Origin: Thuidium tamariscinum
Taxonomy: Eukaryota > Streptophyta > Bryopsida > Hypnales > Thuidiaceae
Length of the DNA stretch: 64,000 nt
Direction: 5' to 3'
NCBI GenBank assembly: GCA_947034885.2
Contig: OX344752.2
Coordinates: 29,618,386 to 29,682,385, forward strand
Under the pieces are notes generated by a model. It was not told where the DNA came from and did no database searches. It saw nothing but the letters and a program-made list of their open reading frames with translations. Made by a program: the position numbers and the translations under genes. The first letter of the stretch is position 1, and every line of letters begins with the position of its first letter. Below are positions 13,646 to 63,980 of the stretch, piece by piece.

Positions 13646-15531
13646 CCTGCCTCTCGGATTTCTTCCATCTGCTGCGCCTTAAGGGATCGTTGTTCCCACG
13701 AATCCCATGACGGAGCGAAGCTCTGGCTACATGAGGGGCCATCGTGCTTCCTCTTTCCCTTCGGACGTTGAGACGATGTTCTGTGTTGGGGAAGTGTGGG
13801 CAGCTTCGGGTGGGAAACAACTACCTCGTGCTTGAGTTCCAAGCTCGAGGTAAGAGTATCCGTTGTCGCGACAGGGTAGTTCGCATCTCTGTAGAGCTTC
13901 CTCTAGGTCCCTTTCTCTGAGGCTGACGGATCCACTGAAGGTTCCCTGGAACGCAGTGGCGAAGGCGATGCCGAGAAAGGCAGTCTAGTATTCCGATCTG
14001 GAGGGCTATCCACGACCCCATCGTCGATGGGTTTCCTAGAGAAGTCCATGGAGGAATTCAGAGTAGGTGCCGATCCAAGAAAGTTCCCGGTGCTGAAGAT
14101 GACGTATTGCTCGTAGTTGAGGATGGAGTCCTCGGACGCTTGGCAACGTAGATCCCCAATTGGCTCCTCATGAGTGGGGGCCCTGACGACCTTCAATACA
14201 AAACGTAAGAATTAGATCCGACCAATGAAAATCACAAAGCAAATTTATACGAAGGACTCAAACCACTATGTCGGACAATGAGCAGATAGTATTTCCGCAT
14301 TGACACTTTAGCTCGATCCGAGCTAACATGCGCAGTCCCGCAAACAACCACAAAGCGTTGAATTGCCAATATTCAGCTTGACTTGAGCTGATCCGCATAC
14401 CTCGACATGTTCCTCTAACTAGCATTCGGTGATCCGCACACGACCTCCATGGGCCTGTCATATTCTTTGCGACCCCTTTCGTCGCAAAGCATTCATCGTC
14501 CGATCCTCTCGTTTTTATTATCACGGAACGACTTCACCCCACGTCGCGGTGAACGTGCAACTGCTGAAACCAGGAAAGTAGCATTCCCATGAGGAAATTG
14601 TCCTTATCGCTGTTCCCTCTGTAGCTCCAGGACTCTACGAGAACTACGTTCTCGAACTTGTTCATTATGTGCTTTCGTGGGCTGTCGTCCACTATAACGG
14701 TATTTCTAGAGTTAAATCCCCCTCATGGGTGACCGAAAAGCACGTCTAAATTCTTTAGGAACAAATCTTTTTCAGTACCCAGTTCTTTATAGGAGGTGAG
14801 CCTCCCAAATTTGTCCCTGCATTTGAATGTCTTGCACGCGTCTTGACCGAGAACCAAGAGAGGCCTCTAGTTGTTCCGAAAGAGGTACTCGCAGATTTGC
14901 TCAGTGGTGGTTCTCTTTATGGAACTCCACACTAAAACAAATGCTATCGATCCTAGCTCGTCAAGGAATCTGGAGCAATTAGGCCTTACGTACACTGCCT
15001 TCGGTCCCACTACCGCAGCCACGGTAGCAGAGTGTAGTTCCGATTGGGTGTTGAACTGTCTTATTGACCCCTTCGACTGCCAGTCCTCCGCGACACACAG
15101 AATGCCATTGAGATCCAGGACGACGTTTATCCACTTCACTGCCACCCTGGACCTCAATGGCCGATGCACGTCTTCCGTTGCCCCCCCACGAGCTACTAGA
15201 GGGTCGGATTCCTGTTAAGAAACGGAGGACATCGCAGCTAGTTACGAATCGTCGAACTGGCACAGAGCGGAGATCACGCAAAATCGAATCACAAGGTCCA
15301 TACGTCATGCGTACTCTCAGAGACATACCTCAATCTGCGTCGATTCCAAGGGCTCATTGACATCCTCCGAGACCGAAAGCGTCTGAACGACAGCAGAAGT
15401 GCCTTCTCCTTGCGTAGTGGCCTCGCTTTCTACTCTCTCTTCTACAAGCGGATTGTTCTCGCAAGTGACCAGAAGAGAAGGCTCGAAAGAAGGAATCACA
15501 CAAACATGCAATTGTTCAATAACAACAGGGC
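13646..15531 (-). pseudogene. Gene 2A: FCP1-like phosphatase-domain protein, 3' end removed
   Basis: Exons inferred from splice sites run 15531 to about 15331, 15212 to about 14460, and about 14190 to 13646. The second exon encodes an FCP1/NIF-type HAD domain: INVVLDLNGILC (motif I, second Asp replaced by Asn), RPNCSRFLDEL, FVLVWSSIKR (motif II) and TVIVDDSPRKH (motif IV). The last exon is Ser/Pro-rich, with MDFSRKPIDDGVVDS shared with gene 2B. In-frame stops occur near 14861, 14725, 14531 and 13905. CACTA A ends at 13645 inside the last exon, so the C-terminus present in 2B is missing. It lies about 240 bp downstream of gene 1A on the same strand. The DLNG form of motif I occurs in plant FCP1-like proteins; activity is doubtful here. 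Confidence 0.7.
14308..14391. repeat. Two A-type palindromes in the intron of gene 2A
   Basis: TTAGCTCGATCCGAGCTAA lies at 14308–14326, and a weaker form, TCAGCTTGACTTGAGCTGA, at 14373–14391. Both lie in the interval between the FCP1-domain exon and the last exon. Confidence 0.75.
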
Positions 15532-15725
15532 CTGCAGTACAAAATTGAGCAAAAACTCTCCATGAGAAATAATATATTACAGCCTTAGAGTCTGAGTGAT
15601 AATACAAAAATTTTAATACAAAATTGGAAAACGCTTTCGCAATTCATCTTCACCGATGGTAAAGCACCGCCAAAAATCGATTCATATCTACAAACAAACT
15701 GTAAACATGAGCTAGCCCTATACAA

Positions 15726-15745
15726 TTCAGCTCGAGTCGAGCTAA
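15726..15745. repeat. A-type palindrome between genes 1A and 2A
   Basis: TCAGCTCGAGTCGAGCTAAG lies at 15727–15746, about 25 bp beyond the gene 1A stop codon. Copy B has a palindrome at the equivalent place (61148–61170). Confidence 0.85.
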
Positions 15746-17017
15746 GACTACAGAAACGAAAAATCGAATTGTCATTGGGCACAACCTGCTGGTGGATCTT
15801 CAATTGGCTGAGAACCACTTCCGAGTTCCGCATCGGAAGCATCCACGGCTAGGTTGTGCCCAACCTCGACACTGGCCTTTCCCTTGGAAGTTGCCTCTTC
15901 CTCTCCACGCTTGCGCTCGTCGTGAAGCACATTGAGCTCCTTGTCGAAGGAGTTCTCTGGAAACTCTTCGAGCAGGGCCAGTGCAGACCTGCGGATCGAA
16001 GACTCTGTGGACACAGGCTCCTCGAATGGTGGCGGGAGAGGCGTCACTATTGGGGACTCCGCCGGTAGACTATCGTCGAGTGGTGGCGGGAGTGGCGTGC
16101 GTACTGGAGACTCTGCAAGCAGAGGAGGCGCCACATTCACTATCGCGGCGGGACTCGTGGCGTTGTTGTTGTTTGAGCTCGCCGGATTACCCTCGATTTG
16201 AAGTTGTTGAGGGGTGGAAGTAGGCGAAATTGCGGCGAGAGGTTTGATCCCCGCCTTGTCCATCAACAAGGCGAGGATTTCTCCGTTCCTCTTACTCTCT
16301 TCCCTCCTTTCCTCTACCTGCTGCCGCAACCATTCGCTCTGCTGTGATTGGATCTGCCAATTCTTCTCGTTGATCTTGTCCTGAGCCGCGCGATCCCTCT
16401 CACGTTCCTCCCGAAGCTGCGCCATGGCCAGTTCCGTCTTTCACTAATTAGCTTGCGCGCTCTCAGCTTGAATCCTCTGGTATTCAGCCATTTGCTTCAT
16501 ATAGTCATTCATAGACTCCCGTTTTTGCTTTCTCTCGGGCTGACTCACAAGCGTCAGAATTCGTGGCGTCTGAGCGGGTGGAGGAAGCATGGATGATGCA
16601 GAGGACCCTGGGATATCTGGAACTACTCGACTCGTTGGAGTCGCCATTTCGTCCAAACCAGCGCCCTCGTCATAGCCGTCATCGGACTCAGACTTGTCTT
16701 CCGTTGATGAATCATCATCATCATCATCAACGATTTGCAGCGGTTTTCTCTGTTGCAAACTTCCAGGTGAATCCTGGCTCGATCTCAGCTTCCTCTTTGA
16801 AGAGGACGGCTGAGACTGCGAGCCACGGATAGCTTCCGGCTGCGCCTTCGCATACCCGTTAGGCAGGAAGTCATTCTTATCCAATGTCATGGCGCTTTCA
16901 CAGATTTCCGCCCACCATTGACTCTCGAAGTCCGTTCCAGAAGCAAATACATCAATGCAGTTCATCTGCAGTAGTGTAGTGCAGGCAGCGGTTACAAAAG
17001 GTGATCCACTATGGAGA

Positions 17018-17128
17018 TCAGCTCAATTCGAGCTAAACTGAAGGGAAGGAGATAACAATGAATTCAAACAATAATTTAAGATATTAGCAGGCATAAATAC
17101 AGGACACATTAGCTCGATTCGAGCTGAA
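17018..17128. repeat. Two A-type palindromes in gene 1A intron 2
   Basis: TCAGCTCAATTCGAGCTAAA (17018–17037) and TTAGCTCGATTCGAGCTGAA (17109–17128) lie in the intron between the motif-I exon and the last exon. The second is about 16 bp from the 5' splice site. Gene 1B has one at the matching intron (62416–62437). Confidence 0.85.
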
Positions 17129-18583
17129 ATTCAAATAGCATACCATGGCTGCGCAGGTCAGTTTCCCTCCGACGAATCTCGAGAAGACGCAATCGCTAGG
17201 AGTGCAAAATTTCTTAATGAGCCACAGATAAAATTCCATTCGCAATTCCAAATTATGGATACGATACTCGAGCTTGCTATACGCACGCACCTTCACATAC
17301 CTCGCAACATCTGGACATTCAAAATCCTCTGGAATTTTGACTTGGTGTTTGTTTTTGGGATTCTACAGAAACATGAGGATCACCCTCTTTGGTGTCCTCG
17401 CAGCGGAGACATCACCGAGTCGATCATTTTTCCCGGCATAGTAGTCGGCGTAGTTGATGTTCCATGAGCCCAAAACCTCGTGCAACTCTATGAATCTCAG
17501 GACCTGAGCTTGCTCCTTCTCATCGCCACAGATAAAAAGCCAGGATGACACATCGTCGACTTTGGGCTCTTTTTTGAACATACTACTTATCACTTGGAAA
17601 AAATAAGGATTGTCGACTGTAGATTTCTCCTTATTATCGATTCCGGGAAGGATTCGGAAATCCACCACTCCTAGCGACATCCGCTTCGGAGTGTCCGCCT
17701 TCCAAGCACCCGAGGGCCACGTAGAGTGAACGTTCTTATCTTCGTTGTACGTCCGATAGTGGCCTGTTGCTGTTGGTTTCACGAACCTGGCCTTTCGCTC
17801 TAAGAACAACTGGAAAAACTCGTACGCATCTGGCGACAGCTCGGCGCACATCTTGTTCTTTGATCTCATGAGCTTGGCCTCAGCGAAGTATCTCTCCCCC
17901 GGCTTGTCGAGGAGGACGTCCATTGTCGCTCTGGAAAACATGCGGTCCTTCTTGAATGCCTTCCAATTGTCGACAATGATCTCATTCTTTGCGTTCATTA
18001 GGCCGAGATCAGGTTTAATTTGGTGAAGCTCTTTCTTCACCAAATGCTTCCGCTTACGGCGCTCAACCCACTCCTTCGTCGTGTAACAACTCTCAAGGAC
18101 AGACGATATCGCTTTTATCGTCACCTTGGGTAATTGTACTTGCACTTCTTGCCCGACTGATTTAGTATGTGATTGGCTGGCTTGGACAGCTCGTCGTAGC
18201 TTAGGTTTCCAAGGAATTTGAAAAACTTGCGATTAAGCATACAGTTGTCCGGGTTCCAATCAGTGCGGGCGTTAAATAACTTTTCGGTATCTAGGTTGAG
18301 GAGCTCGCCGTGCGCGGTGGCGGATATCACCTCACTCTAGAGTTTGTAAACACTGTCGGGCGCAGTGATGATTTTCAATTCATTCATAAGCTTCAGCTTC
18401 TCTTCCTTGTCCTTAGACTTGGACAACTTCAAGTTCTTGTTTACATCGATCATGGAAAATCGAACGTAAACAGCCTTTTCAAATTCCTGAAAACAATTAA
18501 CAACAAGTCAGGTACCGTTTGCTATAATCAAAGACTTTTACCAAACACTGAGAGAAAGCAATGCAAATTACCATGCTAGGCAT

Positions 18584-18603
18584 TTCAGCTCGAGTCGAGC
18601 TAA
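18584..18603. repeat. A-type palindrome in gene 1A intron 1
   Basis: TTCAGCTCGAGTCGAGCTAA lies 9 bp inside the intron from its GTGAGC donor. The equivalent intron of gene 1B has a palindrome at 63960–63980. Confidence 0.85.
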
Positions 18604-20101
18604 ATTGCTCACCTAAAACTTGTCCTTGTTCTTCAGATTGTCCATTGTCCTCCTCAAGGTTGTATGGGTGCCAACAGAAGCTACCTCCTTTGGATTCTTC
18701 GGTCTGTCCATAGCCTCCCACACCTTTCTGGCACCCAGAATGTTCGTAGCCCACGAAGGCTGTGTGGCAATGAAGCGGTTCGTGCGATTATAGTATGCAG
18801 ATATGCACCGAAGCTTCTCGTCATCGTCAGACCACGCGAGAAAACAGTTCCACTTATGGAACTCCTTCCTCGCGCTCTCAGCAATGCCATTCGCATCATC
18901 CATCATCCACTTGCTAGCCGCCACGCTGTGTTGACCGTTGATGATGTAGAACTCGCTGTTCTGAACCTGTTCCCACGAAGTTGGCTTCTCTGTGAAGCCC
19001 TTGGGCATGACGCACAATGTCTGTCTTCCACTCTTGTCGGGAATGTTCAGTAGCCAATTCACCATATCTCTGACTATCCAATTTTCCTTTGAACGGATAT
19101 TGAACGTCGAAGGGGTAGCGACCAACTTTGTAATGTCGATCTCTCGCTTCTCCCCAACTAGCAAAATGTAGGCGTCGTCGCAAGTGGACCAGAATTTCTG
19201 GTAAACTACACTGACTAATTTGTAGTCAGGCGCTCTCTCTGTGGCTCGTGAGTGGGGAACATTTTGCATTTCCTCCACATAACTCCCTGAAGCGATTTCA
19301 GACTGTTCGGATGACTTTGCAACAGTGTGGGCAGTGGCTGGTGTGGCAGCTGTCTTCCTAGATTGTGATTGCCTTGGCACCCTCGGTTGCTTCTGAGTGT
19401 TTTTTCTCGCCTTAGCGGTGGTTGACTCGACCACTAAGTTCCGCTTTGAGATTTCACTTCCACCTAGTGTGACTGTGTTCTTTGAGACGGATCATGGTTC
19501 CTTCAGCTTATCCTGCAACTGAAGTTTAGCCTTCAATGTACTGAGGTCACTGAACATGAGCCTCAATTTCGCACACAAGCGCCTCCCTGCAAGAGGAGAG
19601 CCATTTGCATCCTACCACTCCTTGTTGTCCATTTTTTTCTCCAACTCTTTTATCTCATCGACAAATATTGATGTCTCAAGACTTTTCAGGAATGGTGTCA
19701 ATGTAAACGGAATCACGAGCGAGTTCAAGCAGACTGTGTAGTGGTATTGATCACCTAGTGGAAGATCTCTATCATCTGTCATGCACTTGATCTTGATGAC
19801 CGGATGTGCATCGGCTTCCACGTCCTTCACTTTCTCATCAAAGGATAATTGTATGAATATGGGTGAGTTCTTGAATTTAAAAGAGAATGCACTCTCGTTT
19901 ATGAAGGGGATCATATGTAAGCTCCAGGCCTCCACTTGGTCAGGATCTTTAAACTCCTAAAATTCTCCCTCGATGAGCATCATGTCCCCGTCAACGTTAT
20001 CGTCCAGGTTTTGAACCTCACATCGCTTGAAGTACATCTCCAAGTTGGCAACTTGTTCCTCCATTCTGCACACCCGTAAGAAAAGAAATTAGTTTGTATG
20101 T

Positions 20102-20730
20102 TTAGCTCGATTCGAGCTAATGTGGCAGGTCCATTTCTATTTGTTGCAGGCATTTGTTAGCCTTATTACTCTAGGAATCTAACAACTGGCTGATTATTCA
20201 GCTCGATTCGAGCTGAATGTCCATTTTCTCTATATGTGTAAGAGGTATTTCTTATGTTACTCAGCTACTGTTCTTGTTGTTGAAGTAGTCAACGAGAAAA
20301 GGATTGTTATTAAATTCAATCTGTTTCTCATGGTTCATGTGGTCACTCTTTCAACTCGAGTCGAGCTGAGCTGCAAGGCTATGAAAATTGAATTAAAAGC
20401 CTTTATTTGTTCTGTAGTTTAGCTCAATTCGAACTAACTTTCAGGCATTTTTAGCCGTATTTGTCTAGGACTCGAATAACTGACTCACTATTCAGCTCGA
20501 CTCGAGCTGAATGTCCATTTCGGTTGTACGAGTAAGAGGCGTTCCTTATGTGTGTTGGCTGCTGTTCTTGTTGTTGACGTAGGTAACGAAAAAAGGATGG
20601 TTATTAAATTGAACCTGTTTCACATGGTTTGTGTGGTCACTTTCAACTCGAATCGAGCTAAGTTGCAACGTTATGAACATGGAATTAAAAAGCCTTCTAT
20701 CGTCTTGTAGTTCAGCTCGAGTCGAGCTAA
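20102..20730. repeat. Cluster of seven A-type palindromes upstream of gene 1A
   Basis: Copies lie at 20102–20120, 20197–20217, 20350–20369, 20419–20437, 20491–20511, 20642–20661 and 20711–20730. The consensus is TCAGCTCGANTCGAGCTGA, a perfect palindrome around one variable base. Blocks of about 290–295 bp are duplicated: 20161–20450 and 20455–20740 share CATTTTTAGCC, CTAGGA and GTAAGAGG…GTTGTTG. The cluster probably lies in a 5' leader intron, since an acceptor (GTGTGCAG) precedes the start codon. Confidence 0.88.
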
Positions 20731-22260
20731 CTTGCAATCTAGAGTATTCAGATTTGAGGAGAAATCCACCACTGCCCGATCACTACATGTCCGGGCACTC
20801 TATAAAACACTTGGGTTTTGAACTGCATCCAGTTTTAGGGTTTGATGGAGAATCTGGACTGACCTGGTGGTACGCTGTCTCCACTTCTCTTGCACTCAAA
20901 ACACTTATGCACAGAAAATTGAAACTCTGCAAGTAGTAATTACAGGGTTCCAGTTAGGGTTTAGGGTTTAGTAACAACAACATTACAACAGAAATCACAG
21001 AGGGGTTCAAAGTCTCACCAGTCCTATGTGTCCTAATAGTAAAGGAAAAACTCTTACAGACTCTGAACATGCACACCGCTTTTTCAGTAGAAAGCATGTT
21101 TGTATGAATTGTTTACAATGAAGCCAAAAAACTCATACAGCCTGACACAAAACAAAGTGCTATTGTAATGAAAGTATACTACAATGAATAGAGCATGCTG
21201 TCATCACCCCAAACAATAGTGTGAAACATTCATGACTCAATTCTACTATAAAGAGAAATTGACATTTCAGTGCACAGCAAATCTAACATACCCTGAGCAA
21301 ATCCTATGCATGAGGCAGCAAAAACATGAAGCAAACCCTGACCACATCCTATGAAGCAGGAAGCACAATGGCTAACTAAAGAAACAGCAAAGCACAATGA
21401 ACAAATGCAATCGAACCCTGTGAGCAAACAGGGAATGCAAAAAGATCTCAAGAATTTAGAGAGACACGCTCCCAAAGAGAACAAATTCCAAGCAAAGAAA
21501 AACAGAAACCAAAAGAGACAACTTACCACCGATAGGCAAGGTGCTCCAATCGACACAAGTACTCCAATTGGGAAGGCGCTCCCTTGAAGACAACCCGCAA
21601 CCACCCGCAACCTCCCGCAACCTCTTCCATAATCAACCCTGAGCTTCCTAATCCGCTGTGCCGGAGCTTCCAGATCCGCCGCGAGAAATTAGTCAATTAC
21701 ACCGCTCAACCGCGCCGCGCTAAACGCTCACTCTCCGGAACTCAGTCACACCACTGAAGGAAACTCTGAACGCCTCGTGAGAGCGCGCAAACAGGACAGC
21801 CTCCCCCGAAACATGCTACACACCAAATCACAGAAACGCTGAATACCCGATTGACGTGCAAGGCCAATGAAACAGCAAAGCACTCAGAAACACCAAAACT
21901 CTCTCAAGCGCTCTTCAATGTTTACAAGAAATGTACAAATTTGAGCGCACAAGCGTAGAGAAACTGAAGAAACACAACGCGAAAAACCTCCACAAACACA
22001 ACACAAAACCTGCAGAAACACAACGCGACAGAAGAAAACACGAAAGTGGGGGTATCCAGCGCCAAACCCTAGGTGCAGCCGCTTCACTCCACGATACCCG
22101 CCGATACCCGCCGATACCCGGAGACAACCGGTTCCATGTTATTGAACCTGTTTGGAGACAACCGGGTTCAAGGCAATTGAGACCCGATTCAGGTGATACA
22201 CGGGATAGGTCTAAAATAAGTACTACAAGCCAATTGGAAAATGTTGAGTGCAATTTTGCG
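20731..22260 (-). promoter_or_regulatory. Probable promoter and leader of gene 1A
   Basis: No convincing gene lies here. 20935–20970 has GTTTAGGGTTTAG-type telobox sequence. 21640–22130 is GC- and CpG-rich, unlike its AT-rich surroundings, and holds three 10-bp units of CGATACCCGC (22092–22121). Position and composition suggest the promoter and first exon of gene 1A on the minus strand; this is inference. Open frames at 21230–21610 and 21931–22272 show no recognisable product. Confidence 0.35.
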
Positions 22261-23530
22261 CTACATACATAAACTATGTCATTCACCTTTGAAAATGCTC
22301 AATTTTATCATTTTTCTTTGAAATTGCACAATCTAATCTATAAATGTACAAAGAACAAAACTATCATTCATTTCAATGTTAAGGAAGGCAAAAATTAATT
22401 GCAGATATCATCGAGTTCAACATTGTCTTAACTTCTAGTGTGTAACAAGACTACTTATTCATTAGCACTTCCATAGCATTGATTAAAGGTCTTCTTTTCA
22501 AATTAAAATATTAAAGGTTGGAATTCGCACTAGTAACCCACATTCACAGACTTTATATCATCCACTAGGCTAGATCCATCTTCATATGTCCGTAATGTAC
22601 CTGTGTCTCCATAGTACAAAGGCCCTTATATTGATCATGAAACTAAGGTATTTATAGAAGTCATTGTACAATAATTAGTTAAGGAAGGTTTTGAATGTGA
22701 TAAATCGTGTAGGGACTTTTTGATACGGTAAGCCATATAAGGTCATCTTTATGTAGTAAACTGTATAGAGTTTGAATAATACAATGAACTACATAGGACT
22801 TCAGTTATATTAGAAAATCCTATAGGATACAACTTAAAGAATGAATTAGTGATTTCAAGGTGGTTCCAAATTAAAGAGGAAGCATCTTAGAAGATTCCAA
22901 ACAAAAAAACAATAGTAAAAGCTTCTATTCATTTAAACGAACACGAAGACATATTTTTTTTTATTTCAAAAGAGAGTGCACAATTAGTGAGTATGAAATG
23001 TAAGTTGCTCCATGAAAATGTGATTTATTACCTATTACCCTAAATCCTAAACCCCGAACCCTTGTTAATCTATTTCAATGGATTTTGGTCAATTAAAATA
23101 TAAAATGAAATATTACAAAATAAATTTATAAAATATTACCTAAGACAAATGCTAGGACTCACATTGAAACTATTAGAAACAAATTTGACAATGGTGAACA
23201 CGAACTTCATGAGAATCATGGTTCAAGGGTATAGAAAAGACAAGGTACTAAAGCAATTTTTTTCATGATCTAAAAGATTGGCATGTACTAGACATGCAAT
23301 TCTAAGTACTCTCCAAATACGTAGTTCTCAGACATTCCAACTTCTCCAATAAAAATTTAACTTTTATTCACGTGCATTTCATGAAGAATATGAAATGTTT
23401 ATTAAACCCTATACAGTAATGGCTTTGTAACCATTTGTTTCTTCAAAATTAGAATTGTTGAATTTGTCATCATTCAATTTAGAGAAGTATTCTATTTGGA
23501 ATGTTCAAAAACTTTAGAACTTCAACCTAG
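22261..23530. other. AT-rich spacer without recognisable content
   Basis: AT-rich sequence with no supported open frame. A degenerate telomere-like tract (CCCTAAATCCTAAACCCCG) lies at 23038–23056. Near the right end the sequence begins to resemble the satellite that follows. Confidence 0.4.
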
Positions 23531-24930
23531 TTTTTCTTGTATTGATGTGAAATTCATGACATTGGGGGGATTTTGATTTCCATAGTGGAAATGGTTGTGT
23601 GGTCTATTTTCTTTTTTCTCAATTGAAATTGATCAATTAGCGGTCATTTGATTTGAATTAGTGTTCAATTTAGAGTGTCCTAAGACTTTAGAACTTTCAC
23701 CAATTCTTTTTGGCACCCTTTCACGTGAAATTCATGACATTGGGGGGATTTTGATTTCCATAAAAAAAATAGCAGTGCGATCTATTTTCTTTTTCCTCAA
23801 TTCAAATTGTGCAATTGACGGACATTGGCTTCTAATTAGTATTTGATTTAGAGTGTCCTAAGACTTCATAGCTTTCAGCTATTTTCTTTGGCACTCTTTG
23901 ACGTGAAATTCACGACATGCGGGGGGATTTTGATTTCCATAAAAAAATGGCAGTGTGGTCTATTTTCTTTTTTCCCAATTCAAATTGGTCAATTAGCGGA
24001 CATTTGATTCAAATTAGTATTGGACTTAGAGTCTCCTAAGACTTTAGAACTTTCACCTATTTTTTTTGGTTTGTATTGACGTAAAATTCTAGACATTGGG
24101 GGGATTTTGATGGTATAGAAGAAATGGTAGTGCGGTCTATTTTCTTTTTGCCCTATTGAAATTGGTCAATTAGTGGACATTTCATTCAAATTAGTGTTGG
24201 ATTTAGAGTGTCCTAAGACTTTACAACTTGCACCTATTTTCTTTGGTAACCTTTGACGTGAAATTCATGACATTAAGGGGATTTTGATTTCCATGAAAAA
24301 AATGGCAGTGTGGTCTATTTTCTTTTTTCCCAGTTCAAATTGGTCAATTAGCAGATAGTGGCTTGTAATTAGTGTTGGATTTAGAGTATCCTAAGACTTT
24401 AGAACTTTCACCTATTTTTTTTGGTTTGTATTGACGTAAAATTCTAGACATTGGGGGGATTTTGATGGTATAGAAGAAATGGTAGTGCGGTCTATTTTCT
24501 TTTTGTCCTATTGAAATTGGTCAATTAGTGGACATTTCATTCAAATTAGTGTTGGATTTAGAGTGTTCTAAGACTTTATAACTTGCACCTATTTTCTTTG
24601 GCAACCTTTGACGTGAAATTCATGACATTAAGGGAATTTTGATTTCCATGAAAAAAATGGCAGTGCGGTCTATTTTCTTTTTTCCCAGTTCAAATTGGTC
24701 AATTAGCAGATAGTGGCTTGTAATTAGTGTTGGATTTAGAGTGTTTTAGGACTTCAAACTTTCACCATTTTGTTTTGGTTTGTATAGACGTGAAAATCAT
24801 GACATTGAGGGGGATTTGGGTTCTTTAGAAAAATGGCACTACGGTCTATTTTGTTTCTTCCAAATTCAAATTGGTTAATGAACGGTCAATTGCTTCAAAT
24901 TCGTGTTGAATTTTGAGAAAAGAGAATAGA
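23531..24930. repeat. Satellite array A, 177–178 bp monomers
   Basis: The landmark GACATTGGGGGGATTTT or a variant recurs at 23558, 23736, 23914, 24092, 24269, 24447, 24624 and 24801, spacings of 177 or 178 bp. The monomers at 24092 and 24447 share TTGACGTAAAATTCTAGACA, while those at 24269 and 24624 share ACGTGAAATTCATGACATTA. A dimeric higher-order unit of 355 bp is therefore present twice. No coding content is credible. Confidence 0.92.
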
Positions 24931-25980
24931 AAGTAGAAACCTTTAATTGCTCTAGTTACTATTTTTATTCTTCTCACAACACCAATAAGGGAAAATCCAA
25001 GTCAGACCCCTTCTCCTATTGTTAAACACTTTTATTTTTAAAGTTCTGGATCAATAAGACATTAGTCGTAAGAAAAGAGATGTAAGAATTTAAAATATTA
25101 TAGAAATGTATAATGCATGACACCCTACATTTTATTTGTCTTTAGTCTTTTTTAAATTAAGATGAAAATTTAAGAAAATAATCTTCTATAGTTAATAAAG
25201 TCTACATCTAAATTCATGGATTTTTGTTGCACTCTATAATGAGTAAATATAATATAGAAGGTCTAAAACATGAGAACATCATGTTGTGAAAGCATCTTAT
25301 TTCATAAGTGATCCATTCATCATTCGAAAGTGCTTTTATAGAAGAAAAAAAAACATTATGTAATATGCATTCTTTACGTTTAAGTAAATTAAATTACATT
25401 AGCAAGTTCTAAATGGTTTATTGAATTAACGATACTTTGTAGGGATGAGGTAAAGTGCTTCTGACATCATGATTTTTTAATAAAAAAATTCATGAAAGCT
25501 TTTAAAACCTAGCAAATGAAACTACTTTAATTAGCGTACAAGTTGCAAATCACTAGAAGATCAAAGATTTATTGACAATGTAGGTGGTCATTATATTTTT
25601 GGCTTTCCTATCATTTCAAAGTTTTTTTCATTACAAATTAGGCACTACACCAACAATCTTGATAATAATTAATAAGGTGCACTTACGGTTTCGTAATCAT
25701 GGCTATATCATTATGACCATAAGAAGCTTCAAAGGATGAACACGTCACAATGTAACTAGTTCAATGATGGCCCTGGCACAATCATTTACTTACACCTAAA
25801 CATGTTTACTATGATGAGCCTTCTACTTCTATTATGAAGACAAGATTGTCAATTAAATTAATATGGTACACAATGTAATGTTAGAAGGACAAAATTTTGA
25901 AAACCAATGTCTACAGTATTTTGAATATTTCATTAAATTCTTCAACTCTCGCCAATGAATTTCATTTAAATGCTGAGAGC
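24931..25980. other. AT-rich spacer between satellite arrays
   Basis: No gene, element end or clear repeat is visible. It is AT-rich with short open frames only. It may be older, unrecognisable satellite or an inserted sequence. Confidence 0.35.
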
Positions 25981-28180: not shown

Positions 28181-29560
28181 GTTCAACAATACTGGCATCG
28201 TCTTTTGTTACTGATCAAAAGTATTCATAGAAGGCCCTTGAAATGAATGAAAATAATTTCAAACATAAAATATGTTTAGCTCTATCGAATTCTAAGTTCT
28301 TCCCATTGCTTTTGAAATTTTTTTTACGTGGAATTCAAAACATATGAGGCTGTAATTTTATTTTTAAGAAAATGGCAAGATTCTGCATGTTCTAGTTTAA
28401 ACAAGAAAGTGGGCAATTGGAGTACACGAAAATTATTTGAAATTAATGTAATATATCTATGTTCCTATAAAATTGGAACTTCTACCCATTTTGGGGGGCC
28501 TTTTTTTAATTCGAAAGTTAATGCATTTGAGGCTTTCTATTTATTTTCAAGAAAAAGTTTGTATTTCCCATGATTTGGTTTTAAGAAATACAAGGCTAAT
28601 TGTGTGCATTAATATGATTTGAGAAGTGGAGTGTTTATATTCTATAGGGTTCCAACTTATATCTTTTTTTTATGTTTTTGCGTACATGGAATTGAAGGCA
28701 TTTCAAGCTTTCCACTTACTATGAAAAAGAAGCCAACATTTCTTAATTTTTGTCTTAAATTTGAAAATGTGCAATTACAACATATGAATATAGTTCTAAA
28801 TATAAGACAACATATGAATATAGTTCTAAATATAAGACAACATATGAATATAGTTCTAAATATAAGAAATCCGTAATCTATAGGATTTAAAGTAATAGCC
28901 CTTTTTGGCTTCTTTGTACTTAGAATGAAAGACGTTTCAGGTTTTCTAATTTTTTTTAAGAAATTTGCAGGATTTCTCGTTTTCTACTTTAAATTGAGAA
29001 GTGGATGACTGAAGTGCTTGAATCTTTTTGAACACAGAATATCTATGTCCTGTGGAATTGTAATTCTAAACCATGTAGGGGTGGTTCTTCATATGTAGAA
29101 TTCAAGACATTTGAGGCTTTCCTCTTTTTTTAATAAAAATTGTAGGATTTCTTATGTTTTTGTTTTCATTAGAAAATAAGTAATTGGAGAAGATTGAATT
29201 TCTTTTCATTATAGAATATTTATAATCTATGTCAGTTAATTGTTTACTTATTTTTTAAACTGCTTAGTATATGATTTAAAAGACATTTTAGTTTGAGTAT
29301 TTATTTTCAAAAAAATGAAAAGAGTTTCTCATTTTTGGTTTAAATTAAAAAGTTGACACCTCGGAAGGATCCAAATAATTTTTGAGATAAAGATTTGAGT
29401 TTCAGTAGCATTTATATTTTTTTCTATTGTCTAGGCTTCTATGTATGTAATGTTCATGACATTTGCAACTTTTGCTCTGTTCATAAGAATTTGCAGAAAT
29501 TGTCTTTTTCTTAGATTTCAGTTAAAGGATCAACTTGTAGAAAGTATGGAAATAAACAGA
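28181..29560. repeat. Diverged satellite-like sequence
   Basis: Beyond array B the order of landmarks persists: a T-run, TTTACGTGGAATTCAAAACA, GAGGCTTTC, then AAGAAAATGG. It recurs at roughly 170–190 bp intervals but the sequence has decayed. I read this as the degenerate edge of the array. A local triplication of 30 bp lies at 28779–28868. Confidence 0.5.
28779..28868. repeat. 30-bp tandem repeat, three copies
   Basis: CAACATATGAATATAGTTCT followed by AAATATAAGA is repeated three times without change, so it is recent. It sits in the diverged satellite edge. Confidence 0.9.
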
Positions 29561-42835: not shown

Positions 42836-42840
42836 GATGT

Positions 42841-54087: not shown

Positions 54088-54340
54088 GTTCATCTCCATT
54101 CATCCCTATTCATCTTCATTCATCCCCATTCATCTTCATTCATCTTCATTCATCCTCATTCATCCCCAATTTTCCATTAATCTTCATTAGGCACTTCTAT
54201 AGCTATATATTTTTATTCAAAATCATTGACATAGGTATATTATGGTGAAAACTTGGAAAAATTTTACAAGTTCAAAAAAAATTTCAATGCTCAATGCTCA
54301 ACACTCAATGCTCAACGCTCATTGCTCCCCGCTCACATGG
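54088..54340. repeat. Simple tandem repeats
   Basis: 54088–54180 is an imperfect array of CATTCATCTTCA-type 12-mers. 54284–54335 has CTCAATGCTCAA-type units. The second lies just before the point where similarity to CACTA copy A begins. Confidence 0.8.
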
Positions 54341-54360
54341 TAGCAACCCTGCACATCGAG

Positions 54361-56242
54361 TGAGGTGAGACCTTTAGGTGCTTCTAGGCTCTTACTTGCA
54401 TTGCGGGACACTTCTAATTTCAAATTAGTTATTTTCAATGTGCATGGAACCTTGTTAGATTGCAGTATGCTTTCAGAAGTGAATCCAAACAGTCGAATTC
54501 GTAGCACCACACGAACTGCGACTAGAAGAATAGTTTACCAACCTTGGCTGAAATCGTTCCTTTCTCGCTGCTTTGATAGCTTCGTTGTTGCATTCTGGGG
54601 AAGCAGGAGTAGGGAACATATGGATGACGTTGTGGGAGCAATGTTGGGTGGGGTGAAGGGGGTAACGGTAAAACCACTATTCACGTGGTCAAGTGAAGAT
54701 GTTGAAAGTTCTGAGAGTGCCAGTGTTGAAGATGGTAGTGTATTTGAGTAGAGCAAGCAGTTAGAGTCCATTTATGCTCGGTGGCCTAGTTTTTGTGCAG
54801 CCAATACAATCATTGTGGATAGTAAGGCAAGTAGGGTCGAGTGTAACCCAGAGGCTAATATCATCAACAGTACCCCTTTCTACGTGAAGTGGATGTGCGC
54901 ATTGGCAGATGATAAAGAGTACTTGAAACGGTATTTGTGGCCGTTATTGGAGGCTTTGCAACAGTGCCAAGATGTTCTAGCTTTTCGGAAAAAGTTTCCC
55001 GAAGTTGTCAACGACTCTATGTCAGAGATGCTACAGAGACGGCGGAATGGACACGCGTATGAGTTCCTTGATATTATAGAAGGTGAGGGGACTAGCATAC
55101 CATTGCGTTGCATACGTGAAGGCGTCCCCTCACCTTCACTTCATGTTTGAATCTGATGATGTGCTAATGTGTCCATAGGGCAAGGTGCAAAAGCGGGAGG
55201 CGAGGATGAGGCCTGCAAACCCTACATCCGCAACTCCGAAAAAAGGTTCCACACCCTCCACCAAACAGGTGTGTTGCTTCAACTGTGAAGTGCAGCATGG
55301 TCTTATTTGTTTACTGAGTCATTCACTAGTTGTATCCTAGCTCGACTGAGTCATTTACTAGTTGTAGCGTAGTCGTCCTGAAGTTAAGTTGTGGTTTCTA
55401 CAGCGACTTTGACGCGACTTAGCTATAGAACTTATTTTCTTGTAAGGTGTTTAACCCATTGTTCAATGACGTTGTAGTTATGTCTAAAATGTTTCATTTA
55501 GGTTAGACTCAAATGTGCCCCACAGATTCCGTGTACGCATTCAATTTGGGGCATTATCCAGGTAAAAGTATCCTCAATTGTAAACCGGAAGCCTAAGAGG
55601 AGGTAGGTAACCCTAAAGCGTAAGTGTAGAATTGCATATTGCATGACTTGCTTCTGCAATTTAGGAATGACCTTGGATTGCAAGTTGTTGCTCTTCCAAC
55701 CACATTCAATAGTGCGAAGACCTTCTTGTTGGTACATGTGCTCATACCATTCAATGTAACGGTCTAGGATGAGACTTGGGTCGCACACTTCATCGTGGAG
55801 TCGCACGGAAGTGAAACAGCAGTTACCGTGTGCACAGAAGTCATGCAGAAGTGAACTTTCTATTACGTTTTAGTCACATGCCAGTGATGTGGAAGTCATC
55901 AACCAGTAGTGTTACAATATATACCAATGTGATTTATGCTTTCTTGCACTCTAGCTAATTCGTCTCCATGTTGCAGTATCGGATCGGAGACAAAGTTTTT
56001 CTCATAAATCCACGGTCAACAAGGCAAAAAGTGGCGGTGGGCAAGATCTCTGGTATACTCAGAAGCACAGGTTCCATTGCAGAGAAATTCCTGAGACGTG
56101 GTTCAAGATTGACGTAAAGGAAGTTATGCATGGTGGGGTGGCGCTCATGTTTCCCAATGCTGAAGATGATCAAGAGAAGCTTGATGATGTGAAGGACACT
56201 TCTACAATGTGGAACCAAAAATTCCTCAAGATTACAGTTTGA
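54361..56242 (+). pseudogene. TNPA-type CACTA gene with FCP1-like domain, copy B (5' truncated)
   Basis: Similarity to the CACTA A gene starts abruptly at about 54361, so the Ptta-like part is missing. Exons at about 54361–55079, 55180–55269 and 55978–56242 match. The HAD domain shows LVIFNVHGTLLDCSM, QPWLKSFLSRCF, VAFWGSRS and IIVDSKASRVECN; as in copy A, the nucleophile Asp is absent. The next exon, GKVQKREARMRP…KKGSTPSTKQ, matches copy A. The last exon is the TNP1-like C-terminus (EIPETWFKIDVKE…LMFP). A TAG near 54750 stands where copy A has Trp, and a one-base frameshift lies near 56062. The copies differ clearly, so the fusion is not a recent duplication artefact. Confidence 0.72.
55498..55806 (-). 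CDS. Short open frame in an intron of CACTA gene B
   Basis: A minus-strand frame of 102 codons (MRLHDEVCDPSLILDRYIEW…) has protein-like composition and no equivalent in the corresponding intron of copy A. I do not recognise it. It may be an inserted gene fragment or chance. Confidence 0.2.
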   Translation of the reverse strand: MRLHDEVCDPSLILDRYIEWYEHMYQQEGLRTIECGWKSNNLQSKVIPKLQKQVMQYAILHLRFRVTYLLLGFRFTIEDTFTWIMPQIECVHGICGAHLSLT

Positions 56243-57207
56243 GGTAGCATCTGTTTTTTTTGGGCAGGGCCTAGTTCCTTGTACTAGCACTTGTAGAAGT
56301 ATTATATGTTTAGAGTTTAGACTGCTATTGTAAATGGGAAGGCTGAATTGCAGTCGTGGCTTTCCCTATCTCAAGGACCACATTTACTTAGCCTTATATG
56401 GAATTTGGAGCAGAACTTGTAAATGAATTTATTTGTCTTACTGAGACACTTCAAATATAGATTACTTACACAAGTCTCTCTTGCATTTGCATTTAGAAGT
56501 GTGCGTCGTAGTTTGGAGATGTGACCCGAGGACCTTGATGCTTAGGAATTTGAATCTGTGGAGTCACTCATAACTAACGTGAACTGGCTTGTGACTGTGC
56601 AATGACTATAATGTTCTCGAAATGGATCTCGTATATCTTGTGGCCAACGCCCTTAAAACTAGGAAATGACTCAATGAAGTTACCTAAACCATCTATAAAA
56701 TGACGGAGAAATAACTCAGAAATGACTAAAAAACGAATCGCAAGCACTGTCCAGGGTTACTACACCGCAACTCCATTGTGACTATACACCAAATGCCGAA
56801 ACCACTGACGTCACTGTCCACGTCAGCAAAAGTTGGACTGCATCACAACTGAAGAATGACTTCCGAATTGGCTGACGTGGCAGGACACGTCAGCAGAAGT
56901 TCGACTGAGTCGCAACTGAAGAATGACTGGAAGACTCTGCCACGTCACAAAAATTTCCCCCGAAAAGGTCAACTGCCCATGTTTTTCCCAAAATTTCCAA
57001 GTTCCACTGACCAGCCCAAGAGACTATTTCATCTGTTACTCATCCAACTCCCAAATGGATGGTGATAATACACCCAGAGTCATTTCAAGAATGACTTGTC
57101 CACAATGACTGCAGAGGCAGAAGTCATTTTTTAGTCATTTCGGTCCGAAATGACTGGTTTTGAGTCATTTTTTGCAGTCATTTATACCCCATGTTTTTAG
57201 TAGTGCA
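56243..57207 (+). mobile_element. Right terminal region of CACTA B
   Basis: From 56560 the TGACT motif clusters again (GAATGACTT, AAATGACT), with paired ACGTGGCAGG/CACGTCAGC motifs as in copy A. The terminus read on the minus strand from 57207 is CACTACTAAAAACATGGGG. The left end of this element was not found, and the target triplet therefore cannot be checked. Confidence 0.75.
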
Positions 57208-58343: not shown

Positions 58344-60995
58344 CTATTGCGAGTATGACCTATTCTTCAATTTTTCCATTGCCTTCAATATCTCAGGACC
58401 TCGACTATATCTGGTATGGCTCCCTGTTTTTTGGCACACACTTTCACGCACTTGCTTCTTCAAAGACCTTTCCTCCCATGCATTCCATGAACGTTCAATG
58501 GAATGAAGACGAAGTTCCCCATGATGTGTTTTACATTTTCGCTGCCGAACTGGCGCTGAAGGAGTGCATTTAGGTGGAAGAGGCGGAAAGCCACTTGAAG
58601 TAGTCCTCCATTGTTCATTAGAACATTCGTTCGGCACCAATTTACTGAATGCAGTGATAGGAATGGGCACGGACATGGCAGATCCATCAAGAACCTGCTA
58701 ATAGAAGATACAAGTGGATGTCAAAATCTTAAAATGAAACAAACAATTCTTCAAAACAAATGCCGTTTTCAAATAAAAGAATTCTAAATTAAAAAGGTCC
58801 ATACCTTCATCACAGGCTCCACAAGAACTTCATCAACGTATAACTTTCTTTGAGTCGCGCCATTCAATGTAGAGCATTCAGAAGGAGAGGTTGACCGCTG
58901 ACGACATTTCAAAGGGGAAGGGGAGCTGATAGAACTTGGGTGCTTCCCACTATTAGGAAGACTATCTACAACACCATCGTCCAAAGACATGCAGGAGAAA
59001 TCCATTGTGGATTGAGTTGTGGCTGTTGAATACATGATATGCCCCAATCCACTTTGTGAAATGGCAAACTGTCCATAGTTAGAGAATGAATCAACAGAGG
59101 TAGTGCACTTGTTCTCACACTCATTTCCAAGAATTGAATTAGCACGTACACCCTGGAAATCAATAAAGATTGTCAAAAACATCAAACGTCTAAATTGATA
59201 TATTACAAATTGGCATAGTCTAATGCTCACAAGGTACTTCGACATTACGCACAGTGCATGCATGTGCATGCAAATGGATATAGTATATGAAAATGAAACA
59301 CATACAAGAGGGCATGGAAGATCCTAGGGCCCTATTAAATCAGCCACTCTAGTATCTTTTGGATTTTGACGGAAGAGCATAAAGACCCTTTTAACTTTGT
59401 CCATAGTATGGATATCTCTATGGATGTCTTTAAAAAAAATTTGTTTCTCTAAACCGCTTTCTTTCCACTCATCGTAAATTCTATTGCTCCTTTCAATTGC
59501 TTCTGCTATATCGTTGTACTCTCTTCTATCAGTTTCCTCGATAAGAGACCAGCGACCAAATATGTTGTCTAGGCGGTAAGCATATAGTGTTCGTGGCCTT
59601 GCAACGTGCAGACGTTGAATCCATGGAAGAAGGTGATCAATAAGGATTCCATCTACGTTTTTGTCTCCTTCATGTGACCAAGGTTCAAACAAAACGACAT
59701 TACTTGGATAGTTCGTAACGTGCCTTGATGGATTGACGTCAACGATTATTGTATTCTGAAAAGAAAAAATTGAGTTCTCCAACTCCACTAACTTGTCCAA
59801 AGGTTTCAAGAGCAAGTCCACATCTGTTCCGTTCACCTTGTAGTTGTAAAAATTCACTATAAGAAACCCCCATTTTAGGTAACGAGCCCTAATTTTTTAT
59901 AACGGATTTTGGGTGATGTCAATGTTGACAACTCAAAATTTTTATGTCGACAAAACTGTCCAATGTAACATCGATGTTGACATAAAAACATTGGACTGTT
60001 GACATTGATGTTACATTGGATAGTTTTGTCGACATAAAAATTTTGAGTTGTCAACATTGACATCACCAAAAATCCGTTATAAAAAATTAGGGTTCATTAC
60101 CTAAAATGGGGGTTTCTTATAGTGATTACCGCGTCCGTCTCTACACTTGACCACATTGCATTGTTCTTTTCCGAAAATATTGAGAGGAGGCTCTATGCCT
60201 CTAAACAAGTTTTTCGTGATAACTAAAGCATGCATCCTTTTCATAGAAGACCACACTAATACATTCGCAATTGCGGACAACCCTTTCAACACTACTTGAA
60301 GATGGGGCCTAATAGTGATCCGCTTGAAGCCAATAGAATGGGGTTCTATGTTTGAAGGAACATTGTAGGTATCACTATATCGTCTTTCTCGAATAAGATA
60401 CCTCTTATCCTCACATATGCATAGTAGCCCATGCAAACCCAGAATGACATTAAGCCATTTCTTGGTCACCCCAGATGTGCATGGGAAGAAGACACTGCCC
60501 TCTGCCTCTTCTCTATCCTACTCAGAATTTACACCAAAATGGCCAGACAGTTAATTTGGTGCACTGTCCATGTCATTTTGAGTATTAAAGGATTACCTAC
60601 CCCATTGAACCTAGTGGATCAAAATAAAAGATAAGAAAATTAAAACCAGACTCATACAATGTATAGAGGGTGAAGAAGAAACTCACAACATTGGCCACCT
60701 CGTGTGAGGGAGAAGATACACATGCTTGAACAGGACCCTCAAAAGGTGGAATATTAATCTCCACAAGAGCATCGTCCACAAGATCATTAACCACCTCAAA
60801 ATCCTTTAAACTATGAACAAGGCTTTCAACCTTATTCATCTCAGGTGAAGGAAGAGAGGTGACATCGATTACTACAACTGATGCATTCCGAAGAGATACT
60901 TTTTCCGTGTCATTACCATGATCAATACATGGAAGTGGACACTGAATAGGAGGTAGCGACACTCGTGGAACATCGGTATCAAAACAAAGTGTACT
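58344..60995 (-). pseudogene. Gene 2B: FCP1-like phosphatase-domain protein
   Basis: Exons inferred: about 60995–60687, 60520–59324 (interrupted by a 270-bp MITE), about 59152–58805 and 58694–58344. The domain shows NVILGLHGLLC (both motif-I Asp lost), NVLVWSSMKR and NTIIVDVNPSRH, then LLPWIQRLHVARPRTLYAY. The C-terminal part shares MDFS…DDGVVDS and SW.AWEERSLK with gene 2A, and extends beyond the point where 2A is cut by CACTA A. Removing the MITE and one ATT restores a continuous frame (…KCRDGRG|NFYNYK…). A TAG stands at the exon start (60520) if the acceptor is right. The loss of motif-I acids suggests a pseudophosphatase role at most. It lies just downstream of gene 1B. Confidence 0.65.
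59855..60124. mobile_element. CACTA-type fold-back MITE in gene 2B
   Basis: It is flanked by ATT on both sides (59852–59854 and 60125–60127). Ends are CACTATAAGAAACCCCCATT and its near-perfect inverse. Almost the whole 270 bp is one inverted repeat, centred near 59990. The ends and 3-bp duplication fit a tiny CACTA derivative, unrelated in interior to CACTA A or B. Confidence 0.92.
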
Positions 60996-61147: not shown

Positions 61148-61170
61148 TTTCAACTCGATTCGAGTTGAAA
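61148..61170. repeat. B-type palindrome between genes 1B and 2B
   Basis: TTCAACTCGATTCGAGTTGA is symmetric and lies about 15 bp beyond the gene 1B stop, matching the A-type palindrome at 15726. Confidence 0.88.
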
Positions 61171-62415
61171 TGAGGCTAAGAGAGTCATAAGGAACAACTT
61201 GGAGAGATATCAGTCACAGGGTCCTGTGACTGCTCGGTCTCATCCCCTTCCGCTGGAGTAGTAACATCTATCTTCTCACCCTCTACGACCAAGTCACCAC
61301 CTTGCACTTCAACGGAATTGTCATCAGGAATTGGAGTAGATTCTTCTTCTCTTGTTGCAGATATTGGAGAAGGTTGCACACATGTAGGCGGCGGGGGTTG
61401 CACACTAGATGTTGGAGAAGGCTTCACTATCTGCGCCTCCGAAGGATTCAAACCTCTAGACTTCTGCCGCTTGGAGCTGTCCGCTGATGTATATGCCTGA
61501 TTGGCAATCATCAAAGGCGCTGAGTAATTGGCGGGTTCAATTGCTTGAAGTGGCCTACCACCAAGATAGCTTGCTATCATCCCTGGCATGTCACGCACAA
61601 GGTCCTTGATGAGTTGGCTATTTTGAGCTCTTGCCCGCTCATTCTCTTCTCTCATCTCCGCTCGAGGTCTTGCATTCTCCTCCCTATTGGCTTGGATCAG
61701 CTCCATCATCCACTCCTTGTCCGGATTTCTGGACTACTTTGCTTGCCTCTTCCTCTTCTTCGTTGGACGAGCAGCGGAACTTGGTGTCTGCTTTGCCGGA
61801 GTTGCCATTGGTGTGACAATTGGATGGGATGATGTGTCCGTTGAATCCCGCACCTCAACGGTTTCCATAATGACAGATGGTGTACCAGCGTCATGTGCAA
61901 CATCATTCCCTACGGTGTTTTCCGCAACATCTCCTGTAGGGTTTGTCAGTGGCTCGGGATCATGTGCGTTGTCTTCAACCTGCGTGCCTTCTTCAGCTCC
62001 CTCATTGTCTTCCTCGTCTTCCTCGTCATCCTCATCATCCTCATCCATTGCAAGGATTATTGGAGTCTGATTCTGAGAAGCAGTATGTCTAGCTTCCTCC
62101 TCTGGTGTCATTGGCTGCTTCCCCTTTCCTGAGCTTGAGGCATCCTTGGATGCTCTCTTCGGAAACCTTCCTGAATCCACACGGTAACTGGTATCCAAGA
62201 AGTCATCTTTGTCTAAATTCTCAGATGTAAGCGCAAGGGATGTGAAATTCTCTTTGTATTTGGAGTTCCCCAATACAAAGTGTTTGAGGGAAATCATCTA
62301 CAATGACATTTCAAAAACTGCCTTCAGTTTTTACATTCCCATTCAACTTCCATTGAGTTCTAATTGAACTATAATGTATGCCAAGACAAGAAGAACTAGC
62401 ATCAAACAAATGGAC

Positions 62416-62437
62416 TTTCAACTCGTGTCGAGTTAAA
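62416..62437. repeat. B-type palindrome in gene 1B intron
   Basis: TTCAACTCGTGTCGAGTTAA lies in the intron equivalent to that of gene 1A holding 17018–17128. Confidence 0.8.
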
Positions 62438-63959
62438 CCAGCAATTGAACAAAAAGGAAACGTAGATGGGAAAAAATACTGACTGAGATAAACATACCCA
62501 AGCAGCACAGATGATCTTCCCACCACCAAACACTGAAAGAACTGGATTGCTCCGAGCAACAAACAATCCCAGAACTTGCAAGTAGAAATCCATCTTGAGT
62601 TCCGTATTATAAAGTATTAAAGTCTGTATTCAACGTCGTTGCTAGACTTTGACTTTGAATATCTACCATCCATGGATGCCTCAAACCTTCTCAGCAGTTT
62701 CTTTACTACTATCTTTGCCCCCCTTCTTGATAAAGAAGATAAGCTTGATAGACTCTTTTGCCTTTGATGTCCGCTCAGGCAAATCCCCAATTCTCTCGAA
62801 AAGGGAAGGGATGTAATCGGTATAGTGAAGAAGATAAGATTCACCGTATTCCGAAGTACGAATGTACTGGCGAATGTCAAGCTCCATATCCGCATCCCCG
62901 CAAATCCACAACCACACCTGTGGATCCACCGTCTGGAAATCCTTGAGCTTCTTCAAACCATCCAAGAAGCCCTCAAAATACGACTCGCCTTCCTTCGAAG
63001 AACCTTTGTTGATGATCTCTCGTACATGACGGAAATCCATAACTGCTATCTTCACTACTGAGGACGTGGAATCCTCCCAAACACCACCATCCCATTCTCC
63101 AAAGTCATCTGTCTCCAAATCATACGGTCTGTAGGACCCTGTTGCTTCAGGCTTGCTGAACTTTCCTTTGCTGCCAAGGAAGATGCGGAAAAATTCAGCA
63201 GCATTGGGAGACAGCTCGTTGATGCTCTTGTTCTTGTTGGAGGGCATTTTGGCTAGAGAGAAGAACTCCTTGGGTGGGCCAGACAGAAGAGTGTTCTTCG
63301 TCGCTTTCGTGACATTATAGGCCTTCTTGAACTACTTCCACTTGTCCTTTCGATAGTTGCCTTCATTGCTGAACAAGTTGAGGTTTTTCTTGAGGAAATG
63401 GAGTTGCCTCCTAATTATCTGCTTCCTCTTGCACCTCTCTAGCCATTCCTTGGCTGTATAGCAATCTGCAAGAATCCCTGAAACCTTCTTCATGGTCACC
63501 TTCAGATGTGCTAGTTTTCGATTGGGTGTTCTGCTCAGAAGATGCAATGCCAGTCTCTTTAGATCACCCTTGGAATAGTTCCCTAGCCACTTAAAGAACT
63601 CACGAGGCATGACACCATCTTTTTCTTGATCCCAATTTGGAAGCTGCCTGTATTTCAAGAGAGAATCTGGGTCCACTAGCTCTCCTTAGGATTGACAAGA
63701 AATCAATTCGCTCCACAAATCGTAGACGGCCTTCGACGCCGTAATAATCTTCAACTCGTTGTAGATGTCCACCTCCTTCTCTTTATTCTTGCTGATTTTA
63801 CCTTGGTTTTTCTTGACATCAATCATGGAAAATCGCAGTTTCATAGCAGCAACGAAATCCTACAAGGAATGTTCACAAATCAGTTTGATAACTTGTTCTT
63901 ACAACTCTTGAAACGGCCTCATTCTAACCAAATACATTGAGGATAATGGAAGCAAGCAA

Positions 63960-63980
63960 TTCAACTCGAATCGACTTGAA
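63960..63980. repeat. B-type palindrome in the preceding gene 1B intron
   Basis: TCAACTCGAATCGACTTGAA lies about 100 bp upstream of the exon starting at 63859, in the intron equivalent to gene 1A intron 1. It is slightly imperfect. Confidence 0.75.

Follow-up and report, generated by a model that had tools for sequence, protein, structure and literature searches.

Family-specific palindromes in the non-coding DNA of a two-gene transposon family of Thuidium tamariscinum as candidate self-recognition sites

A 64,000-nucleotide stretch of the Thuidium tamariscinum genome (assembly GCA_947034885.2, contig OX344752.2, positions 29,618,386 to 29,682,385 of the forward strand; hereafter the window) carries short palindromes in the non-coding parts of a two-gene element, in which a gene referred to here as gene 1 stands head-to-head with a second gene, T. 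These palindromes are family-specific symmetric words and are more conserved than the DNA that flanks them. We consider it somewhat probable (roughly 0.55) that they are self-recognition sites of this DNA transposon family, candidate DNA dyads bound by a dimer. The window contains two copies of gene 1, 1A and 1B, which a sequence-only reading of the window had taken to be genes with palindromes at equivalent introns. The two are indeed homologous (38% over exon 3), but both are decayed multi-exon genes, with in-frame stops in each and a frameshift near 18125 in 1A. The sites and the genes that carry them are as follows.

14307 to 14392: A-type palindromes at 14307 and 14372, in what is probably an intron (splice signs by eye) of a NIF-like part after 1A on the same strand
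15726 to 15746: A-type palindrome directly after the last long open reading frame of gene 1A
15772 to 16965, minus strand: following exon or exons of gene 1A, two long open reading frames with stops between them
17017 to 17128: A-type palindromes at 17017 and 17108, both within intron 3 of gene 1A
17144 to 18486, minus strand: exon 3 of gene 1A, decayed, with the frameshift
18584 to 18604: A-type palindrome in intron 2 of gene 1A
18613 to 20064, minus strand: exon 2 of gene 1A, decayed, with three in-frame stops inside and one at the exon end
20101 to 20731: seven A-type 21-bp palindromes (20101, 20197, 20350, 20418, 20491, 20642, 20711) on the 5' non-coding side of gene 1A, probably in a 5' intron, where a 194-bp unit is duplicated
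30761 to 31297: six A-type palindromes (30761, 30846, 30967, 31030, 31095, 31277) lying 5' of gene T
31329 to 32339, plus strand: N-terminal part of gene T, an open frame of 945-981 amino acids in many relatives
40209 to 41888, plus strand: C-terminal part of gene T with DUF7869 (E 1e-41), about 7.9 kb from the N-terminal part
61149 to 61169: B-type palindrome after the last long open reading frame of gene 1B
61185 to 62297, minus strand: following exon or exons of gene 1B, with one internal stop
62417 to 62437: B-type palindrome in intron 3 of gene 1B
62498 to 63859, minus strand: exon 3 of gene 1B, decayed, with internal stops
63960 to 63980: B-type palindrome in intron 2 of gene 1B

In the window, 22 sites (19 of type A and 3 of type B) fit the 21-mer TTYARCTCGANTCGAGYTRAA with a score of at least 17/20, which no 21-mer reached in 20 second-order shuffles of the window, and the exact word CTCGANTCGAG occurs 13 times against 0.04 expected. 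Together with the genome-wide reversed-pattern controls given below, these figures rule out random occurrence. All 22 fall outside the traceable long exons; A sites span 14307 to 31277 and B sites 61149 to 63960, with four further B sites within 10 kb to the right of the window (locus L039). The seven places named by the sequence-only reading were all recovered (21-mers starting at 15726, 17017, 17108 and 18584 in A and at 61149, 62417 and 63960 in B), although 62417, 63960 and 17017 each have one mismatch to CTCGANTCGAG, and 15 A sites had been overlooked (14307, 14372, the seven at 20101-20711 and the six at 30761-31277). The sites at 15726 and 61149, described there as lying just after the stop codon, may instead sit in a further intron, because a donor-like GTTGT word precedes both (by eye). 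The proposed contrast between A and B half-sites is uniform in B, where the distinguishing base is A in 6/6 half-sites, but not strict in A, where it is G in 34/38 half-sites and the B-like A in the other four (at 20350, 20642, 30761 and 30846). Because of these four hybrid sites, strict co-variation of the two halves holds only partly within the window.

The genome (363,211,507 bases) was searched with exon 3 of 1B, and 105 gene-1 matches, 1B included, were retained from 379 candidates. Sites were sought at 72 of the 105 loci, 1B among them, in flanks of up to 700 bases on both sides of the exon 3 match. At least one site was present at 71/72 loci, in both flanks at 63 and in one flank at 8 (L015, L022, L031, L032, L043, L045, L051 and L068), and only L030 had none in its flanks. 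In total, 217 sites were found in 100,800 flank bases, mostly one or two per flank, whereas the 79,053 bases of exon 3 contained none. The 217 include two 21-mers that look like chance matches (L072 at 274 and L022 at 382), which were excluded from typing, pair counts and the association table. The flank-site model is tuned on these data, since it was widened to forms met during the analysis, whereas the exact patterns used genome-wide were not widened. As a side observation on the distribution of the family, contig C11 holds 47/105 gene-1 matches and 58/121 T matches although it makes up just 17.5 Mb of the 363 Mb; it may be a sex chromosome.

The form of the half-site follows the protein family: AGCTCGA in A, AACTCGA in B, AGGTCGA in D (full form AGGTCGANTCGACCT) and AAGTWGR in E. 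A maximum-likelihood tree was built from 69 rows, namely 68 loci and window 1A (L030, L031, L032 and L050, short pieces under 280 amino acids, were excluded; the drawn root is arbitrary). The clade figures are 100/99 for A, 100/100 for E, 100/99 for D and 95/97 for B, and half-site letters -6 to -3 read GCTC in the 7 rows of A, AGTT in the 6 of E, ACTC with two ACTT in the 19 of B, and GGTC with one GGTT in the 37 of D. Half-site type required 6 changes on this tree (minimum 5) against a mean of 29.9 after shuffling, and 0/200 shuffles were as low, which agrees with the prediction of the sequence-only reading that each paralogue subfamily would have its own palindrome. With E placed beside B and A beside D, position -6 separates AD from BE, and C or G at -5 distinguishes A from D and likewise B from E; position -3 changes in E. 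Each of these differences is found in both halves, and -8 varies also within families. Family F, a distant one (27% against exon 3 of A and the part beyond it, at E 4e-37; 148 matches with its own query, which may overlap with the 105), has the palindrome ATCCTCGA / GTATCCTCGANTCGAGGATAC, taken from one copy.

Among 110 distinct sites, symmetric pairs exceeded the number expected from the column margins at ±5 (94 against 58.7), ±6 (104 against 69.2), ±8 (72 against 55.3) and ±3 (82 against 74.0), so the paired changes above chance that had been predicted are present, in counts that are not independent events because sites within a family share descent. Genome-wide, exact matches and matches to the reversed-pattern control numbered 243 and 0 for A, 106 and 2 for B, and 316 and 2 for D. 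Sites with one half of each kind numbered 79 against 0 in the control for A/D and 1 against 3 for B/D. The 79 mixed A/D sites lie 5' of T (47), beside gene 1 (21) or elsewhere (11), and many of them look like products of descent, repeating one arrangement and orientation. Their existence indicates that the symmetry is strong but not absolute; palindromes that lose symmetry freely, named beforehand as telling against a maintained symmetry, are in the main not what the genome contains, yet 79 mixed sites stand beside 243 A and 316 D sites. The central base is variable, and positions ±1 are mostly A or T in A (11/13) and D (46/72), as on a dyad axis.

Conservation was compared between sites and their surroundings in relatives picked by hand, the 12 of family D so as to span the clade. 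In the D introns, 0.84 (5') and 0.81 (3') of site columns were identical compared with 0.51 and 0.48 in the flanks, and none of 5000 permutations gave such a result. The corresponding site and flank identities, for which no permutation was made, were 0.68/0.49 and 0.66/0.55 in five A relatives, 0.87/0.67 and 0.81/0.69 in eight B relatives, and 0.68/0.46 and 0.61/0.47 across six relatives from all four families.

The sites are also tied to gene T. A search for T relatives gave 122 matches, of which 121 were typed and used. T lies head-to-head 5' of gene 1 at 79/106 places (the 105 matches and 1A) at a median distance of 13.6 kb, compared with an average of 2.5 and a maximum of 8 under random placement, and in the window T (31329, plus strand) is likewise directed away from 1A. 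The 5' side of T bears the matching palindrome type in A (in the window), in B (in L004 too) and in D. Near-gene zones ran from 6.5 kb 5' to 7 kb 3' around the start of gene-1 exon 3, or over the 1.5 kb 5' of T, and cover at most 0.44% of the genome. Among the first 50 listed places of each word, 50 of B, 46 of D and 36 of A lay in these zones, so the family-specific forms are not spread at random through unrelated introns, the distribution that the sequence-only reading had held against itself; under another zone definition 47/50 listed D places fell in the zones. The zone of 1.5 kb 5' of T by itself took in 17 (A), 15 (B) and 20 (D) of the 50 listed places. For plain CTCGANTCGAG on contig C1, 9 of 50 listed places were by A-, B- or D-type copies or T, 24 by copies of the F superfamily and 17 by none, where the F-superfamily zone (-14.5 to +8 kb, 0.33% of C1) was set after the site positions had been seen. 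Since T adjoins gene 1 and has matching palindromes on its 5' side, the words are better described as a self-address of a transposon family than as an intron motif, and the earlier framing as an intron motif near splice sites was too narrow: they mark non-coding stretches of this transposon, the 5' side of T among them. Separately, pairs of A-type palindromes 61 bases apart were seen at C2:19259504/19259565, C1:32331246/32331307 and C3:5042700/5042761 with no gene-1 or T copy detected nearby; they are perhaps non-autonomous elements that keep the sites.

The reading frame at 40209-41888 is regarded as the second part of T because the B-family T relative in L004 runs from the one part into the other, continuing into the DUF7869 frame of the window with 77% identity over 88 residues. 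The N-terminal piece of T alone gave no Pfam match above cut-off. A NIF-like (phosphatase-like) part lies 3' of gene 1 on the same strand, at 59324-59857 for 1B (E 0.013, below cut-off) and by eye in 1A. No relatives of gene 1, DUF7869 or gene C, an adjacent gene described below, were confirmed in viral contigs.

In the mechanism that we favour, a symmetric dimer of an element-encoded protein would bind the sites as DNA, and the central base, which lies on the dyad axis, could vary freely. The binder would most likely be the gene-1 product, because this varies with the motif. Binding would keep promoters and introns of the element itself active or free from silencing, and a shift in the specificity of the protein would be followed by re-matching of the half-sites of its element and so by separation of families. 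That the gene-1 protein may bind as a dimer to resist silencing we infer by analogy with VANC, described below. Several results weigh against this proposal. Gene 1 has no recognisable DNA-binding domain and nothing above the Pfam cut-off, comparison with PDB gave nothing significant (best E 0.074 with two rows, 0.2 with twelve), and a single-sequence structure model of 1A exon 2 was unusable (mean predicted local distance difference test score 34.5). The family switches are few, comprising four symmetric positions among A, B, D and E, and sites within a family share descent. The half-sites can differ, as the mixed A/D sites demonstrate, and ±1 is A or T in just 2/17 distinct sites of B and in none of E. 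Finally, T rather than gene 1 could be the binder, and on the sense strand G.U pairs exceed C.A pairs by 54:33 across the 110 distinct sites, which a strandless DNA site does not predict.

This last bias belongs to the alternative that the words act as RNA, forming hairpins with an 8-9 bp stem and a three-base loop in introns or the 5' leader of element transcripts, bound by an element protein or acting on splicing. Those sites in or beside gene 1 that can be placed do lie in introns or probable leaders (judged from splice sites by eye and from exon ends), all six family consensus forms fold as hairpins at -7.8 to -13.3 kcal/mol, and G.U exceeds C.A among unlike pairs on the sense strand both in the window (17:4, p 0.004) and among the 110 distinct sites (p 0.016; 43:24, p 0.014, when collapsed by slot). 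However, the window ratio drops to 14:4 (p 0.015) without duplicated sites and to 9:3 (p 0.07) with one vote per site, and the wider bias comes from D (37:19) and E (4:0) but is missing in A (6:5) and B (7:9). With 33 instances, C.A pairs are common, pairing among the 22 window sites is barely beyond the column margins (24/500 shuffles as high), the stem is broken by a C.C pair fixed in one D subclade (tttagctcgaCtcgacctaat), and a shared orientation can result from descent. In addition, sites occur up to 1.4 kb 5' of T, where they may be untranscribed; this, and the dyad with a free central base, bordered by A or T in most A and D sites but not in B and E, we count in favour of DNA. A hairpin function is unlikely in our judgement, though it is the foremost of the rival readings. 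The sequence-only reading had left open a dimer site or an RNA hairpin: the symmetry it described is upheld, and between the two we lean towards the dimer site.

Alternatively, transposase-like T might bind the sites for transposition or its regulation, gene 1 being merely their carrier. T adjoins gene 1 and sites cluster 5' of T, but the sites of the window element are spread over 17 kb and through the introns of gene 1 (the element ends were not mapped), and we regard this possibility as rather improbable. It is very unlikely that the words are sites for a host transcription factor or functionless hitchhiking repeats: 17/50 listed CTCGANTCGAG places on C1 were near no detected copy and 14/50 listed A places were elsewhere, but the families differ in symmetric words and the sites are more conserved than their flanks. 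The palindrome core also holds GANTC, the target of the CcrM and HinfI methylases, and CGANTCG or something close to it is read in A, in D and in most B forms; adjacent gene C moreover contains a methylase-like piece with PDB matches that include CcrM (E 0.14) and DpnA (E 0.001). Nevertheless, a strict GANTC is missing from family E, the site in intron 2 of B has CGATGCG, motif IV of gene C reads DIPD (by eye) and gene 1 gave no significant match to methylases, including N6/N4 DNA methylase profiles, so that a target word for DNA modification is scarcely credible.

Gene C and its own palindromes occupy the following positions.

46861 to 52435, plus strand: gene C, a different, intron-rich gene, exons by eye, with one in-frame stop
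47009 to 47845: another palindrome (best CCACCTCGTCAACGAGGTGG), present within intron 1 of gene C in eight copies of varying state, mostly in 115-nt tandem repeats

The C-terminal piece of gene C (135 amino acids) matches N6_N4_Mtase (PF01555) with 27.3 bits against a cut-off of 26.7, and the motif that by eye reads DIPD corresponds in N6/N4 DNA methylases to a catalytic DPPY-type motif. Kinship of gene 1 with gene C or methylases was considered and rejected: BLASTP gave nothing, and an hhalign value of 0.098 with two rows, at the expected place, vanished with 31 paralogues and F. A second motif system, AGTCAY/RTGACT, was noticed in non-coding stretches beside NIF-like genes, with 64 occurrences in 2990-13645 and 22 in 54300-57205 (7.65 and 12.29 per kb, compared with 1.31 and 0 in coding parts and 0.83 elsewhere). 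Same-strand AGTCA copies 6-60 bases apart are spaced by a multiple of 11 in 56/77 cases (7 expected), partly through tandem repeats, a spacing that would suit a helically phased DNA-binding array. Other features of the window are a long inverted repeat (33439-37179 / 42841-46825, longer blocks 97-99% alike), which flanks the second part of T and a repeated stretch at about 38134-39931 with another copy at 1182-2979, and two arrays of a 176-178-base satellite at 23565-28171, between 1A and T. Telomere-like CCCTAAA words occur in leaders, as would suit a plant.

Two known systems share part of this arrangement. TnpA of CACTA/Spm elements is an element-encoded protein with repeated short subterminal sites near the element ends. 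The present family is similar in its repeated short sites and its candidate element-encoded protein, but its sites are spread over 17 kb and into introns and are not confined to ends (not mapped here). The AGTCA arrays look more like the TnpA subterminal repeats than the palindromes do, and the ends GTAGTG at 13645 and 57205 resemble, by eye, CACTA termini. In ParB-parS a dyad site is recognised by a dimer; gene 1 matched no ParB family profile, and its INGQHSVAAS resembles such a fold by eye only.

To our knowledge, sequence-specific self-recognition by transposons has been established in detail only for few systems, such as the VANDAL elements. The closest comparison is with the VANC anti-silencing proteins of these Mutator-like elements in Arabidopsis, whose motifs occupy introns as well as intergenic DNA and are not the same from family to family (PMC5735166). 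A short family-specific motif in the non-coding parts of the encoding element, different motifs in related families and motifs contained in repeats are all described for VANDAL elements. Short family-specific motifs that differ between related families are likewise found here in non-coding parts, encoding of the recogniser by the element being our inference; as to repeats, there are the duplicated 194-bp unit in A and the tandem repeats in gene C, but the flanks of exon 3 mostly have 1-2 sites each. The systems differ in that VANDAL elements have a Mutator-like transposase and T carries DUF7869, and in that gene 1 has no recognisable kinship (nothing above the Pfam cut-off; no direct sequence comparison with VANC was made). 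Binding and demethylation have been demonstrated there; binding is a prediction here. Its target is a dyad whose halves switch together; the VANC21 motif YAGTATTAY is not described as palindromic, and 'palindrom' occurs 0 times in the main texts (PMC5735166, PMC10398659). A description of the present motif was not found in the open-licence literature. It is conceivable, and we propose it tentatively, that these genes belong to an undescribed superfamily of transposon-encoded dimeric recognition factors with family-specific dyads, both half-sites having been rewritten across elements several times, and thus to a second, independently evolved VANC-like anti-silencing system. Such a system would offer a natural series from which a protein-DNA recognition code might be read. 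As a further case beside VANC that combines symmetric targets with several diverged families inside a single genome, it would allow direct study of how a recognition protein changes together with dozens of its sites, and of whether self-marking to escape silencing is a general strategy.

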